Positions 2,530 to 6,833 of a stretch of 14,032 bases of DNA are shown piece after piece (position 1 is the first letter of the stretch; each line of letters opens with the position of its first letter). The notes under the pieces are model-generated. The model searched no databases. It was not told the origin of the DNA and saw nothing but the letters and a program-made list of their open reading frames with translations. The stretch is from NCBI GenBank assembly GCA_004195335.1, contig SDWK01000679.1:1-14032 (forward strand). Reading direction: 5' to 3'. The position numbers and the translations under genes were made by a program. The DNA comes from Shewanella sp. (GTDB lineage Bacteria > Pseudomonadota > Gammaproteobacteria > Enterobacterales > Shewanellaceae).

Positions 2530-3283
2530 AGCGCTCGAGCAAGATCCTCACCCGTTTTACATAGGCTTGGGTCTCTGGGTAAGGCGGGATCCCCTTATAA
2601 TGAGTGACGTTTGTAGGACCGGCATTGTAGGCGGCACAAGCTAAGTCGATATCGCCATCGAAGCGCTTGAGCATTTGAGCTAAATATTTTGCCCCCCCAT
2701 CAATATTTTGTTCCGGCTTAAAGGCGTTTTTAACCCCCAACTCTTTCGCTGTTTCAGGCATAAGCTGCATCAGCCCCATAGCCCCGGAACGAGACAAGGC
2801 AAATACATTAAATGCCGATTCTGCGTGAATAACCGCCCGGATAAGTGCAGGCTCAAGGTTATGGGTATTGGCGGCGTGATTAATTAACTCATCGTAATCT
2901 CTCGAAAAAAGCGGCATTTTTTTCCAATCGAGACTGGAGTCGAGTTGGCACGCATAGCAATCATATAAAAGTACCTGATACTTAGTCGCCCCCGGTGCAT
3001 GGTCAGAGAAAGCCGTTACGCCATTTTCCTGCTTATATTGATACACCTTAAGCTGATTATCTTCGCCCTTTGAAGAAGAGGAAGAGGATAAGGAGGGAAT
3101 AGAGTGAGCAGCAGAGGCATTGCTCAGTATCCCCGCTGTAGAGTAACTCGCTTTATAATGAGGTTTGCTATCTCCCTCTTCAGTCCCCAGAGCAACAATC
3201 TGCGCATAACCGAGCTGCATGCCGCTAAACCAAAGCAGAAAGCTGACAATGCCACCACACCAGAGAAGATGCCTAGATTTCAT
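2513..3283 (-). CDS. Secreted SLT-domain lytic transglycosylase
   Basis: 256-residue exported peptidoglycan lytic transglycosylase, which cleaves the MurNAc-GlcNAc bond to give 1,6-anhydro ends. An N-terminal signal peptide (about residues 1-28, hydrophobic core GGIVSFLLWFSGMQLGYA) is followed by a serine-rich linker (62-72). Next comes a small DUF4124-like stretch (about 78-115, YQYKQENGVTAFSD) with a CYAC motif at 109-112. The SLT domain spans about 130-250: catalytic Glu155 in HAES, GLMQLMPETA at 170-179, AAYNAGP at 217-223 and the tyrosine-containing PETQAYV. The layout resembles single-domain soluble SLT proteins more than Slt70 or MltC. Its ATG overlaps the stop of the upstream DUF3137 gene (TGATG), so the two are probably translationally coupled. 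It is the last gene of a lemA-DUF3137-SLT operon. No lipobox is visible, so the product is probably periplasmic. Confidence 0.9.
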   Translation of the reverse strand: MKSRHLLWCGGIVSFLLWFSGMQLGYAQIVALGTEEGDSKPHYKASYSTAGILSNASAAHSIPSLSSSSSSKGEDNQLKVYQYKQENGVTAFSDHAPGATKYQVLLYDCYACQLDSSLDWKKMPLFSRDYDELINHAANTHNLEPALIRAVIHAESAFNVFALSRSGAMGLMQLMPETAKELGVKNAFKPEQNIDGGAKYLAQMLKRFDGDIDLACAAYNAGPTNVTHYKGIPPYPETQAYVKRVRILLERYRKPS

Positions 3284-4293
3284 CAGAGACCCGTATATTC
3301 ATCGAGTTTTAGTACTTCAATCATAGCAAAGAGCTGTCTCATCTCTCTGTTAATTTGGCTGAACTCATACTCAAATGTGGCTCCATTAAAAATGGAGCCC
3401 AGCTCGAATCGATTTTCTTTGCTGGCTAACATGATGAGTAACTTATCTTCATAGAAGGCACATTGAAACTGCCCAGAAAAGCAGTTGGCTAACTCCTGTA
3501 ACCGCTCCATAAAAGAAACGGTCAATAGATAACGCGCCTCAACCTGATCAGATGAAAATACGTCGAATAATTTCTCAAAGCGGGGGTCTTCAAGCTTGAC
3601 CCTGGACAAGCGCTTAAAGGAGTCTGAAAAGAAGTTCATCACACTACCGCGATTGCGTACCACCACAGTATGACCATTAAACTTCTTATGGCAGCTGAGT
3701 TGCACCATCACGCCATTAAATACTGTTTTGGTCTCGGTGCGCTTATCTCCCCTAACTTCCTTAGTGAGAGCCAACTCATTGATCGTTATCTCGATACCCC
3801 GATGAGTTCCTTGGACGTAATCATCAAAATGTGAATTGTCATAACTAGGCAGTAGCTTTGAACGCTTGAGCGTCGTCATGCTCATACGATGCGTCGGGCT
3901 AAAGATAAAATCGTCACCAAAATAGCGAAAAATCTTAGGGAAAACCTGCTGTTTAACATCACTCTGATAATGGGTAACAGGTCTGGAGCACCACCAAAAC
4001 AGAGGAACCAGCGGCAACAAATAGAAGGGCCAAGGTATAACGATCATCTGTGTAGAATCGAATAAAAGACAGGTAAAGAACACCACAGCAAAAATACCGA
4101 TGCTCATGTATACCCGCAGCCTTAGTGCCTTTAAGCAAGCCACTCGACGATTCTCAAACTTGCGTGCCACTGGTTCTATATGTTCATCGTAGTGAGCCTG
4201 TAATGATTCGAGTTCATCATCCACGGCCCTCAGTGGCTTTGCTTGACGCTTAGGCTTTATACGCGCACCAAAAATAAAACTAATTATATTCAT
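3283..4293 (-). CDS. DUF3137-family membrane protein
   Basis: 336 residues. A charged N-terminal segment (1-60) is followed by two hydrophobic helices (about 61-78, VYMSIGIFAVVFFTCLLF, and 83-101, ending PLVPLFWW), and then by a large soluble domain of about 230 residues. This is the organisation of the DUF3137 family, whose genes commonly sit beside lemA; no biochemical function is established that I know of. The soluble domain contains FNGVMVQLSCHKKFNGHTVV and a C-terminal part with MLASKENRFELGS. The ATG at 4293 has no convincing ribosome binding site, and the next Met is at residue 63, between the cytosolic part and helix 1. It lies 56 bp after lemA and overlaps the transglycosylase start by one base, so it is the middle gene of a three-gene operon. 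Function should be treated as unknown; an envelope role is inferred from the neighbour. Confidence 0.85.
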   Translation of the reverse strand: MNIISFIFGARIKPKRQAKPLRAVDDELESLQAHYDEHIEPVARKFENRRVACLKALRLRVYMSIGIFAVVFFTCLLFDSTQMIVIPWPFYLLPLVPLFWWCSRPVTHYQSDVKQQVFPKIFRYFGDDFIFSPTHRMSMTTLKRSKLLPSYDNSHFDDYVQGTHRGIEITINELALTKEVRGDKRTETKTVFNGVMVQLSCHKKFNGHTVVVRNRGSVMNFFSDSFKRLSRVKLEDPRFEKLFDVFSSDQVEARYLLTVSFMERLQELANCFSGQFQCAFYEDKLLIMLASKENRFELGSIFNGATFEYEFSQINREMRQLFAMIEVLKLDEYTGL

Positions 4294-4349: not shown

Positions 4350-4919
4350 TTATTTAAGGTAATCAGAGGAATCAACTGGCGCCTTCGACGCTTCATCGGC
4401 TTCATAGAAAGGCATAACTTTGATAGTCGCCATAGAGGCGATAATTGAACCGGGGAAGATCTCCACCGCATTATTAAGCTCAGTTACCGACGCATTGTAG
4501 AAACGGCGCGCGGCAGATATATGTGCCTCAACTTCATTATAAGTTTGCATCGCTTGTAGCATAGTATGGTCGGATTTTAGTTCAGGGTAGTTTTCAACAC
4601 TCACCATTAACTGTCCCATCTTGCCATTCAGAAGCTCAGCCTTTACCAAGTGATTCTGGATAGCTGATGCATCACTGGTGTCATATGATTTTTCAACCTG
4701 GGCACGCAGCTCGGTGATCTCAGTCAATAGCGACTTTTCATGATCCATAAATTTCTGAGCAATTTTTAAAATATTGGGGACTAAATTCGATCTTTTTTTC
4801 AGTTGAACATCTATTCCTGATAGAGCTTCGCGAACAGAATTACGCTTTTTAATCAGACTGACGTACCAAAGGTAGGCAATAATGACCAGTAGCCCTAAAC
4901 CTAACAACAAGCCTTCCAT
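4350..4919 (-). CDS. LemA-family membrane-anchored protein
   Basis: 189-residue LemA-family protein, the family's usual length. An N-terminal hydrophobic anchor (about residues 2-24, GLLLGLGLLVIIAYLWYVSL) is followed by the family's helical bundle. Typical family stretches are visible: RNSVREALSGIDVQLKKRSN followed by LVPNIL near residues 27-51, and the C-terminal RRFYNASVTELNNAVEIFPG. The start is the ATG at 4917-4919, with AAGGA 6 bases upstream. LemA proteins are thought to face the periplasm, but their biochemical role is not settled. This is the first gene of the operon lemA-DUF3137-transglycosylase, and its promoter must lie in the AT-rich region above 4920. No clear -35/-10 pair stood out there. 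Confidence 0.93.
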   Translation of the reverse strand: MEGLLLGLGLLVIIAYLWYVSLIKKRNSVREALSGIDVQLKKRSNLVPNILKIAQKFMDHEKSLLTEITELRAQVEKSYDTSDASAIQNHLVKAELLNGKMGQLMVSVENYPELKSDHTMLQAMQTYNEVEAHISAARRFYNASVTELNNAVEIFPGSIIASMATIKVMPFYEADEASKAPVDSSDYLK

Positions 4920-5443
4920 TGTATGTCCTTATTATTCTGATTTAACTTCAATATTTTCAGCTTTTATCTAAAGCCATAACTCCCTACCATTACCTATTTT
5001 TTACCTTATTTCCAGATATTTATCGATGTTGTCGGCCAAATAATAATGTGTACTAATTGTGCTTTTTTCACAATGATTGCCCCTTCTATGACATTTGAAC
5101 AAAAGTAAACACACGCTAACAACCGATTAGCCACACAAATCGATAGTAACCATAAAAATGGACTTAAAAATAAAAGAATAAAATAAAAACCAAAACAATT
5201 GCTTTGTTTTCAATAAATTGATAAAGAACAGCGAGGGGTAAAAAACAAACACCCTCTCAAAAACAATCTAACAATTCCCTGCTACAGACAAAGTTAACCT
5301 AACAAAACCACCATTAAGAGAGATATTATTCAAGATGCGTTCAATAACATGATTTTAACCCTATTTTTCATATCCTGCAGCAACTCACTATCGTATTAAC
5401 GTCAACAATCGCAATGCCATAGAAGCACTCATTTGCGGCGAAC
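4920..5443. other. AT-rich non-coding region upstream of lemA
   Basis: No convincing protein gene is seen here. The lemA promoter should be in its left part, reading leftwards. The stretch from about 5103 to 5250 is strikingly A-rich on the plus strand, with repeated A-tracts between 5150 and 5190 that suggest intrinsically curved DNA or H-NS-like binding. Inverted repeats present: ATTGTG/CACAAT (5056-5074, 7-bp spacer) and GAGGGGT/ACCCTC (5233-5256). Neither is followed by a T-run. Confidence 0.6.
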
Positions 5444-5478
5444 CATTCAGTCTCCATACAGGCAAACGATGACATAAT
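5444..5478 (+). promoter_or_regulatory. Candidate response-regulator promoter for sRNA 1
   Basis: CATTCAG (5444-5450) and CATACAG (5455-5461) form a direct repeat with 11-bp start-to-start spacing, the normal footprint of an OmpR/PhoB-family dimer. CATAAT at 5473-5478 is a good -10 box. The expected -35 position (about 5450-5455, GTCTCC) does not resemble TTGACA and falls inside the repeat, as in an activator-dependent promoter. The promoter at 5593-5627 has the same repeat at exactly the same distance from its -10. Confidence 0.5.
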
Positions 5479-5484
5479 AAATCC

Positions 5485-5561
5485 CATGAAGTCCAGTTAC
5501 ATCATCTCGTTATCTTATCGTTACACATCCTTTTCAGGCTCTAATTTGAGCCTATTTTTTT
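5485..5561 (+). ncRNA. Putative small RNA, copy 1 of a tandem pair
   Basis: Predicted transcript of about 77 nt. The start is estimated 7 bases after the CATAAT -10 box, and the end is the terminator with stem AGGCTC/GAGCCT and seven Ts. It has no ribosome binding site and no plausible reading frame. It resembles the next element in layout: the same upstream 11-bp repeat, a pre-terminator pyrimidine stretch (ATCCTTTTC here, ATCCCTTTTG there), and the same T-run followed by GCCTG. The T-run makes it a candidate Hfq-dependent regulator. I do not recognise it as a named sRNA family; the 5' end is an estimate. Confidence 0.45.
5536..5561 (+). terminator. Rho-independent terminator of sRNA 1
   Basis: AGGCTC (5536-5541), six-base loop TAATTT, GAGCCT (5548-5553), then A and seven Ts (5555-5561). 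This is a textbook intrinsic terminator on the plus strand, although no protein gene lies upstream of it on this strand for more than 3 kb. That is the main reason for proposing a small RNA. Confidence 0.8.
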
Positions 5562-5592
5562 GCCTGTAACCCAACGGAAAATAGAGTGTTTT

Positions 5593-5627
5593 CATTCAGT
5601 TTTCATACAGTCAACGTGAGCTATATT
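5593..5627 (+). promoter_or_regulatory. Candidate response-regulator promoter for sRNA 2
   Basis: CATTCAG (5593-5599), TTTT, CATACAG (5604-5610): the same 7-mers as in copy 1 with the same 11-bp start-to-start spacing. The repeat extends to TTTTCATTCAG/TTTTCATACAG, two adjacent 11-mers. The -10 box TATATT is at 5622-5627, 12 bases after the repeat as in copy 1. The -35 position (GTTTTC at 5599-5604) is poor and overlaps the repeat, pointing to activation by a bound regulator. Confidence 0.55.
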
Positions 5628-5633
5628 GGTCAC

Positions 5634-5732
5634 AAGCAAACATGATGACAACCAACCCCAACTGATTGACTTGATGTAATTGCTAGCGCAACCCTATCCC
5701 TTTTGACTCCATATTTATGGGGTCTTTTTTTT
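5634..5732 (+). ncRNA. Putative small RNA, copy 2 of a tandem pair
   Basis: Predicted transcript of about 99 nt. The start is estimated 7 bases after TATATT, and the end is an intrinsic terminator with an eight-T run. The 5' half contains an unstructured-looking AC-rich stretch (ACAACCAACCCCAAC, 5648-5662) that could pair with G-rich ribosome binding sites. It shares promoter architecture, the pre-terminator stretch and the post-terminator GCCTG with copy 1 149 bp upstream, suggesting tandem duplication followed by divergence, as in the OmrA/OmrB pair of enterobacteria (analogy only). A seven-codon ORF (5642-5665) is present but has no ribosome binding site. Confidence 0.5.
5705..5732 (+). 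terminator. Rho-independent terminator of sRNA 2
   Basis: GACTCCAT (5705-5712), loop ATTT, ATGGGGTC (5717-5724): eight pairs including one T-G wobble, followed by eight Ts (5725-5732). It is strong and plus-strand directed, with no protein gene upstream on that strand. Confidence 0.85.
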
Positions 5733-5984
5733 GCCTGATTCTCAGCTGATTTAACAGATATTTTATTTCCTTCTCAACTGGATATTTGTATTGGGGCTGT
5801 CGGTAGGATCTGGAGCTGGGGGCTATTACGCACCTTAAATGAAAAGCTAGCACCTAAAGGTTAGGAAAAAGACACCAAAAGACTCGGTTGAGTCACTGAA
5901 GCTTAAAATATAACGCAGAAATTGAGGTTACCCAGTGCTGCGCCTTTATATATTCGCTACTCACATTTTAATGAGTGTTAACGT
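5733..5984. other. Non-coding stretch between sRNA 2 and the MscS-like gene
   Basis: No gene is seen. It contains a G-rich plus-strand run (5793-5822) with five G tracts of 2-5 in an AT-rich setting, a hairpin serving the minus-strand gene at its right (5873-5894), and a second small dyad ACTCA/TGAGT near 5960-5977 just after the stop of that gene. Confidence 0.6.
5873..5894 (-). terminator. Weak terminator downstream of the MscS-like gene
   Basis: On the minus strand GACTC-AACC-GAGTC (5894 to 5881) is followed by TTTTGGTG and then another T tract. The stem has only 5 pairs and lies about 90 bp after the channel gene's stop, so it is a modest candidate. Confidence 0.4.
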
Positions 5985-6833
5985 TTACTGTAGGTCTTCT
6001 TTACCAAATGCTTCATGGTAAGCAATCATAAAGTCTTCGCGAATAAGCTGCTCTAAATGGGATGCGCGCTCAGTGGGACAAAAAATCATAATATGGATAT
6101 TTTGCTCGCCCGCTGGACCACTATTGATATGGATATGCGGCTCTGGGCCTGGTAAATCAACGCCCGCATGTTTTTCAATAATATTATTATAGCGTTTCGC
6201 CACTTCGTGAAAGTCTTCACAATGCGCTTCAATTTTTTCGTGTAATTCAGGAAAGAGAGAATATAAGTTAAAGAATTCAACCACGGTAATATGAAAGTTA
6301 TGGTAGACATAGCGCTTCATAAAATTAAGGTTCTTGACCGCATAGGTAAAGAACATGCTGTTAGGTAGCGTCGCCGTTTTACCTGTGTAGTGGTATTGAC
6401 CGTGGTGTAGATCTATTTCTTGGATCACTGTCGCCATTAAATTATGTTCAATGACCTCACCACATAATTGACCCACTTCAATCCAATCGCCAATGACAAA
6501 TGAGCGTGAACTCGCACGCTGAATTGAGCCTGTAAAACACAATATAATCTCTTTTGATGCCACCACAATCGCGATAGCAATGGCGGTAACTGACAGTGCA
6601 AATTTATTTATCTCTGTCTGCCAAAGCATAAATAAAATCATCAGGATTAAGATAAATGTGCCGTTTTTGGTACGCGACATCCACTTGCGCTGCACCTCAG
6701 TTAAAAACGCGATATCACCACGAATTTTCGAGATGACAAAACGTTTAATCAGTGAGATTAAAACTATCACCAAGACGGTCAATAAAAGCTTATGAGTTAG
6801 TAAAAAATCAACGGCAATGTTAAGTTTATCCAC
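5985..6833 (-). CDS. MscS-family mechanosensitive channel protein
   Basis: 282-residue small-conductance mechanosensitive channel family protein of the inner membrane; such channels open under membrane tension to release solutes after osmotic downshock. Three hydrophobic helices are visible: about 13-33 (HKLLLTVLVIVLISLIKRFV), 57-73 and 77-101, the last being the pore-helix equivalent (ALSVTAIAIAIVVASKEIIL). The MscS beta domain follows (FVIGDWIEVGQLCGEVIEHN, 112-131) with TLPNSMF at 155-161, and then an alpha/beta C-terminal domain. The pore helix lacks the regular Gly/Ala ladder of E. coli MscS, so it belongs to a divergent subfamily and gating may differ. The start is GTG at 6831-6833, supported by AGAGGG 4 bases upstream. 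It is divergent from the GST gene, with a 225-bp gap carrying an inverted repeat. It appears monocistronic. Confidence 0.88.
   Translation of the reverse strand: MDKLNIAVDFLLTHKLLLTVLVIVLISLIKRFVISKIRGDIAFLTEVQRKWMSRTKNGTFILILMILFMLWQTEINKFALSVTAIAIAIVVASKEIILCFTGSIQRASSRSFVIGDWIEVGQLCGEVIEHNLMATVIQEIDLHHGQYHYTGKTATLPNSMFFTYAVKNLNFMKRYVYHNFHITVVEFFNLYSLFPELHEKIEAHCEDFHEVAKRYNNIIEKHAGVDLPGPEPHIHINSGPAGEQNIHIMIFCPTERASHLEQLIREDFMIAYHEAFGKEDLQ

Follow-up and report, generated by a model that had tools for sequence, protein, structure and literature searches.

Arrays of predicted small RNA (sRNA) genes beside lemA form a family across much of the genus Shewanella, and two such units, arranged in tandem, lie in the window (the whole 14,032-nt stretch of Shewanella sp. 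DNA analysed here). The two are very probably real sRNA genes. They are proposed to encode trans-acting sRNAs, each from its own response-regulator-dependent promoter, which is probably read by the envelope-stress regulator PhoP. The promoter geometry, the terminators, their conservation, the genus-wide array and the co-occurrence with phoP can all be read from the genomes. Two tandem sRNA genes had been the original prediction for this locus, a reading that promoters, terminators and conservation in relatives support; drawn up without relatives, it had the genus-wide array and the PhoP link out of reach.

Both units share one design and lie on the plus strand in a gap of approximately 1 kb between a lemA-type gene and an MscS-like gene (Table 1), where the open reading frame (ORF) list of the window offers no credible protein gene. 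As originally noted, a plausible plus-strand gene is also missing upstream, in the interval from the end of an ORF at 2434 to the first unit; the sole plus-strand ORF of at least 60 codons there (3104-3454) overlaps minus-strand genes. The sequence CATTCAG-N4-CATACAG is found at 5444-5461 and 5593-5610, followed both times by exactly 11 nt and then a -10 hexamer. This repeat had been listed among the short patches common to both units, which are real; beyond being a shared patch, it forms a candidate regulator box at fixed spacing, which had gone unrecognised. An 11-bp direct repeat in place of the -35 element is the promoter layout activated by OmpR/PhoB-type response regulators. A sigma-70 consensus scan detected the promoter of unit 2 and missed that of unit 1.

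A terminator scan located both terminators where they had been claimed, at 5536-5561 and 5705-5732, with stems at 5536-5553 and 5705-5724. Across 4800-6300, three terminator sites were found on either strand, versus 1.0 (sd 1.0) in shuffles. The predicted 5' ends (5485 and 5634) and transcript sizes (77 and 99 nt) are in line with the -10 hexamers. The predicted folding of the RNAs beats most dinucleotide shuffles (z of -2.8 for RNA 1 and -2.4 for RNA 2), and both have a U-rich stretch ahead of the terminator stem as well as a 3' tail with 7-8 U. Viewed as an intrinsically terminated sRNA gene, each unit thus possesses its own predicted promoter (box and -10 hexamer at fixed spacing) and a rho-independent terminator at its 3' end.

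Table 1. Features of the lemA-adjacent locus in the window
Feature	Position	Strand	Remarks
lemA-type gene	4350..4919	-	Named by sequence recognition; divergent neighbour, locus marker across the genus
Candidate regulator box, unit 1	5446..5461	+	TTCAGTCTCCATACAG; TTCAG-N6-TACAG; direct repeat of 11 bp where a -35 element would stand
-10 hexamer CATAAT, unit 1	5473..5478	+	11 nt past the box
Predicted small RNA 1, 77 nt	5485..5561	+	3' end is terminator 5536-5561
Candidate regulator box, unit 2	5595..5610	+	TTCAGTTTTCATACAG; same direct-repeat design as unit 1
-10 hexamer TATATT, unit 2	5622..5627	+	11 nt past the box
Predicted small RNA 2, 99 nt	5634..5732	+	3' end is terminator 5705-5732
MscS-like gene	5985..6833	-	Named by sequence recognition; convergent neighbour in the source genome

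An alignment of the locus across relatives, suggested at the outset as a check, revealed conserved promoters and terminators and much less conserved flanks in five genomes (the source genome and four relatives). Counted as positions invariant in all five, box 1 is conserved at 14/16 and box 2 at 15/16, the -10 hexamers at 5/6 (unit 1) and 6/6 (unit 2), the RNA bodies at 38/51 (RNA-1) and 63/71 (RNA-2), and the terminators at 25/26 (terminator 1) and 21/28 (terminator 2). Outside the units, the corresponding figures are 66/156 upstream, 18/32 in the spacer and 19/101 downstream. The units, far more than the flanks, hold the conservation. A looser form of the promoter pattern, TTCAG-N6-TACAG-N12-A-N3-T, has just two matches in the 5.9-Mb source genome, both at these units; its reversed control has none there and, among five other genomes, two in G086.

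DNA similarity to the window region extends to 12 of 129 genus genomes, the source genome included. Four other genomes show an 84-87% match along most of the query; some of the weak matches occur in tandem series. The promoter reaches considerably further: the strict pattern TTCAG-N5-ATACAG-N11-TA-N3-T is present in 66/129 genomes (reversed control, 3/129), its GTACAG form in 50/129 (control, 4/129), and the two forms combined in 92/129. G124, G029 and G002, which have PhoP and a lemA ortholog and lack an ATACAG match, carry arrays with the GTACAG box. A second set consisted of 65 loci of LemA relatives from named genomes, 47 of them Shewanella by title; because several genomes occur in both sets, the two are not independent. 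With a unit defined as a box (at most one mismatch) plus a terminator, 43/47 Shewanella loci and 0/18 non-Shewanella loci were positive, and the rule yielded 70 units versus 1 with the reversed box. Among the loci that it missed, L252 and L287 contain, when read by eye, a strict box and a terminator outside the rule, and L244 a two-mismatch box at the right spacing with a terminator, which was accepted as a unit; reading of L249 did not reveal one. Adding these three to the rule-positive loci gives at least one unit in 46/47 Shewanella lemA loci. Sequence of sufficient length follows 63 strict boxes in 41 loci, and 61 of these 63 have a terminator within 200 nt, compared with 2.3 expected from shuffled downstream sequence; 24 different 5' stem arms occur among the terminators behind strict boxes in the 47 named loci. 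On the lemA strand, these loci contain no strict box.

The sRNA reading is a prediction from sequence, and the promoters and terminators could in principle be chance or relic elements devoid of function. We regard this as scarcely credible in view of the conservation pattern, the repeated occurrence of units at a single locus throughout the genus and the few matches of the reversed-pattern controls (3/129 and 4/129 genomes; 1 site).

The collected set comprises 90 units from 49 genomes, selected for box and terminator (one double-parsed unit of G016 was excluded), with 1-5 units per genome and lengths of 61-143 nt; at least two units are present in 30/49 genomes. At the -10 positions that the search pattern leaves unconstrained, T is found in 75/90 and A in 81/90 units. 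Arrays of G068, G089, G034 and G124 contain near-identical copies, and other arrays, including the window pair, have promoter and terminator-side patches alone in common. The RNA bodies of the window pair could not be aligned by eye; promoter box and terminator-side patch make up most of what the two still have in common. The old tandem duplication that had been proposed for this pair gains indirect support from the 3-5 tandem copies, some near-identical, at the same locus elsewhere in Shewanella. The motif [TC]CCC occurs in 74/90 unit bodies, against a mean of 52 and a maximum of 61 in 200 shuffles, the units being related to one another. Overall, the RNA bodies are rich in C and change rapidly.

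In place of free sRNAs, such units might be short leaders, attenuators or genes for small peptides. In several species that were read, a transporter gene of the same orientation starts approximately 180-330 nt past the units, which would suit a leader; in the window, however, the next gene downstream is convergent, and the units are terminated and repeated. A 27-codon ORF can be traced in RNA 1, beginning with the second nucleotide (window 5486-5569), but by eye it lacks a ribosome site, its residues vary among relatives and it is truncated in G117 by a 1-nt deletion. The peptide reading of RNA 1 was rejected for want of conservation by eye, and leaders and peptides together are very improbable.

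For the regulator, we take the box shape to suggest CreB, PhoB, CpxR and OmpR as leads; the genomic evidence points to PhoP, which probably reads the box as an activator of the units. In an order-wide sample of 295 genomes (L103 and L104 were left out of the context reading), the box was matched in 23 genomes and the reversed control in 3. The 23 comprise six Shewanella, nine members of genus g35 and eight scattered genomes. Nine of the 15 g35 genomes thus have a match, and in 8/15 it lies directly upstream of an OmpR-family response-regulator gene. The single g35 regulator tested (L069) scores best with the NCBIfam model for PhoP (238 bits, below the cut-off of 336; next RppA, 180). The same model is best for its ortholog in the source genome, G000:C598 (243 bits, below the cut-off of 336; next PmrA, 177). 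The neighbouring kinase in the source genome is matched best by PhoQ (191 bits, below the cut-off of 497; next CreC, 87), via the kinase half alone, the sensor half being unmatched.

The Shewanella phoP promoter carries a related element, TCAG-N6-TTAAG-N11-TA-N3-T (a pattern taken by eye from an alignment), in 30/30 loci, which are the best-scoring 30 of the 120 genomes with a PhoP match. It has the geometry of the array box with changed half-sites: the second is TTAAG throughout, not TACAG, and the first is TTCAG in 20/30 and GTCAG in 10/30, the source genome being among the 10. A box on phoP in g35 and a related element on Shewanella phoP would be expected of PhoP autoregulation. As a candidate PhoP site, the array box stands on g35 phoP in 8/15 genomes and in altered form on Shewanella phoP. 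The enterobacterial PhoP box consists of GTTTA repeats and differs in sequence from TTCAG-N6-TACAG.

Co-occurrence of box and regulator is consistent with the same assignment. PhoP is matched at E<=1e-60 in 120/129 genus genomes, with stop codons in G025 and G067, and the strict box is present in 92/118 genomes with intact PhoP versus 0/11 without (Fisher 3e-7, uncorrected for relatedness). Weak witnesses among the genomes without intact PhoP are G111 (52% complete) and G067 (90%). Shewanella sp. AS1 (G103), with the sole unit-less lemA locus of the 47, has no PhoP match. Conversely, 26/118 genomes have intact PhoP and lack the strict box, 17 of them in a group with 78-84% PhoP identity. The PhoP link is confounded by phylogeny.

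The array could be real and its box read by another OmpR/PhoB-family regulator, for example a CreB-like one, with phoP as one of the targets. The CreB box, TTCAC-N6-TTCAC, has the same spacing as the array box, regulators of this class generally use 11-bp direct repeats at -35, and the source genome has 18 PF00486 matches, two of which were covered by the presence test. We nevertheless consider such a regulator unlikely, given the box on g35 phoP with its relative on Shewanella phoP, and the absence of the strict box from 11/11 genomes without intact PhoP. The other candidate tested, the paralogous L089-type regulator, fails: at E<=1e-80 it is absent from 12 genomes, yet 6/12 have boxes. L089 is present in 7/11 genomes without intact PhoP.

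Several protein-coding genes away from lemA also carry the box. An outer-membrane beta-barrel gene (PF13505) has it upstream in four Shewanella genomes (L029, L034, L046, L053), approximately 50 nt ahead of the start codon in L034, and is likely a protein-coding member of the regulon. The gene of a YscW-domain lipoprotein (PF09619) has it in three (L180, L197 and L199, from G008, G047 and G050, respectively), where it is the only match to either strict pattern. Further boxes precede a metallophosphatase gene (PF00149) in three genomes, a MipA-like gene (PF06629) in G086 alone, and, in four genomes each, two small genes without a Pfam match, one that encodes a short membrane protein and neighbours a maf-like gene (L051, L055, L058, L065) and one for a 105-residue protein (L049, L052, L057, L060). 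Pfam identity was assigned from one protein per group, and several query proteins were of partial length. Matches within coding sequence (L024, L050, L063) are probably due to chance. Together, the box on 46/47 named lemA loci and on envelope genes in some genomes (outer-membrane barrel, MipA-like, YscW-domain lipoprotein) offers a testable regulon.

With PhoP as the reader of the box, we infer the following course, from transcription and PhoP binding through to antisense action. An envelope signal received by the partner kinase of PhoP would lead to phosphorylated PhoP and turn both RNAs on together. Phosphorylated PhoP would bind the 11-bp direct repeat TTCAG-N6-TACAG, which would stand in for the -35 element, and RNA polymerase would start approximately 7 nt past the -10 hexamer and release short RNAs. 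Their C-rich unpaired stretches and U-rich 3' ends would permit pairing with mRNAs, which probably come from envelope genes, and Hfq would probably assist; the U-rich stretch and the 3' U run are compatible with Hfq binding. The likeliest mode of action is antisense repression, with envelope mRNAs as targets and Hfq as a probable helper. Five genomes were searched for exact complements of each of two presumed seeds (11-mers); both seeds had matches in 5/5 genomes, and neither had a start-codon site that was conserved. Arrays aside, sites common to at least two genomes (two pairs for one seed, several for the other) lie within coding sequence or antisense to it. Because neither seed has a conserved start-codon site, no target is claimed. 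A perfect 11-nt complement of RNA 2 lies in the source genome at L304, around position 1500, 52 nt ahead of the start codon of an ORF that looks CyaY-like by eye; the four other genomes searched have no exact match to this site.

Instead of pairing with mRNAs, the RNAs might act as protein-binding sponges of the CsrB/RsmY type. Repeated GGA loops are the defining feature of Csr/Rsm sponge RNAs, and RNAs of this size that occur in several tandem copies and are driven by a two-component system can belong to this class. In some short units, the 5' region does contain an ACGGA or AAGGA. GGA is, however, absent from both window-unit bodies, which accordingly lack the several GGA loops of the class; more than one GGA is rare elsewhere (by eye, uncounted), and an Rfam match is missing. 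The sponge reading is therefore highly unlikely. Copies of one RNA of the kind, RsmX, are mentioned in the accessible text of PMC4132741.

Neither unit had been recognised as a named sRNA family, and Rfam covers neither, in the window or in 20 related loci. Among the latter, no match reached the gathering score. For the window, the sole match at E up to 5 was suhB/mmgR (RF00519), at chance level (19.2 bits, E 4.2; gathering threshold 41 bits), and was rejected. OmrA/OmrB are OmpR-dependent tandem sRNAs that form a fixed pair; they resemble the array in that neighbouring sRNA genes have a response-regulator site in common, and differ in regulator, locus and sequences. PhoP-induced sRNAs are represented by MgrR and PinT of E. 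coli and Salmonella (PMC11825808, accessible text), which would have control by PhoP in common with the units, provided that the PhoP assignment is correct. Unlike the units, they are not known to form such arrays, and no Rfam match links the two groups. LhrC1-5 of Listeria monocytogenes is described in the accessible text of PMC4132741 as a LisRK-dependent multicopy sRNA, and UCCC motifs of LhrC and staphylococcal sRNAs as binding targets. As in LhrC, whose copies all need a two-component system under envelope stress, the Shewanella array has multiple short sRNA copies with C-rich motifs and the same regulator site, and its [TC]CCC-rich bodies are reminiscent of the UCCC motifs that LhrC carries in unpaired stretches. 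The LhrC copies, however, are near-identical, in a Gram-positive host and under another regulator, whereas the Shewanella copies differ strongly from one another, both inside a species and from one species to the next; target binding by UCCC is established for LhrC, whereas the Shewanella units are known here from sequence alone. PhoP-induced sRNAs and multicopy two-component sRNAs are thus known kinds, whose layout the array shares, and it fits no Rfam family.

Respiration and extracellular electron transfer are studied with Shewanella as a model, yet its sRNA layer and PhoP regulon are little described in the literature searched. For S. piezotolerans WP3, 209 sRNAs have been predicted (PMC5471319); the words "lemA" and "tandem" do not occur in the accessible main text of that paper. 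A description of the array was not found in the literature searched (including accessible text of PMC5471319, PMC5826389, PMC12442407, PMC2908699, PMC11825808 and PMC4132741), most subscription journals lying outside its scope. An array family with a common, probably PhoP-read switch thus appears to represent an undescribed layer of gene control in Shewanella.

Tentatively, and as a possibility that we hold in some doubt, the lemA-adjacent locus may be a site of sRNA diversification, at which PhoP-driven units duplicate in tandem and the RNA bodies then vary freely while promoter and terminator stay fixed, leaving each species with its own PhoP-controlled set and partly different targets. In any case, arrays of 1-5 tandem copies, ranging from near identical to unalignable, provide a natural series in which the origin and subsequent change of small RNAs can be followed.

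Two observations concern the surroundings of the units. LemA proteins 65-70% identical to that of the window occur in metagenome-assembled genomes labelled Alphaproteobacteria, Proteobacteria or Sneathiella (L268, L270-L273), at loci without a rule-defined unit; transfer or misbinned contigs are possible explanations. Downstream of the units (window 5740-6833), an MscS-like gene is present where several relatives have a transporter gene (AbgT-like by eye), which indicates that the locus was rearranged in one or the other.
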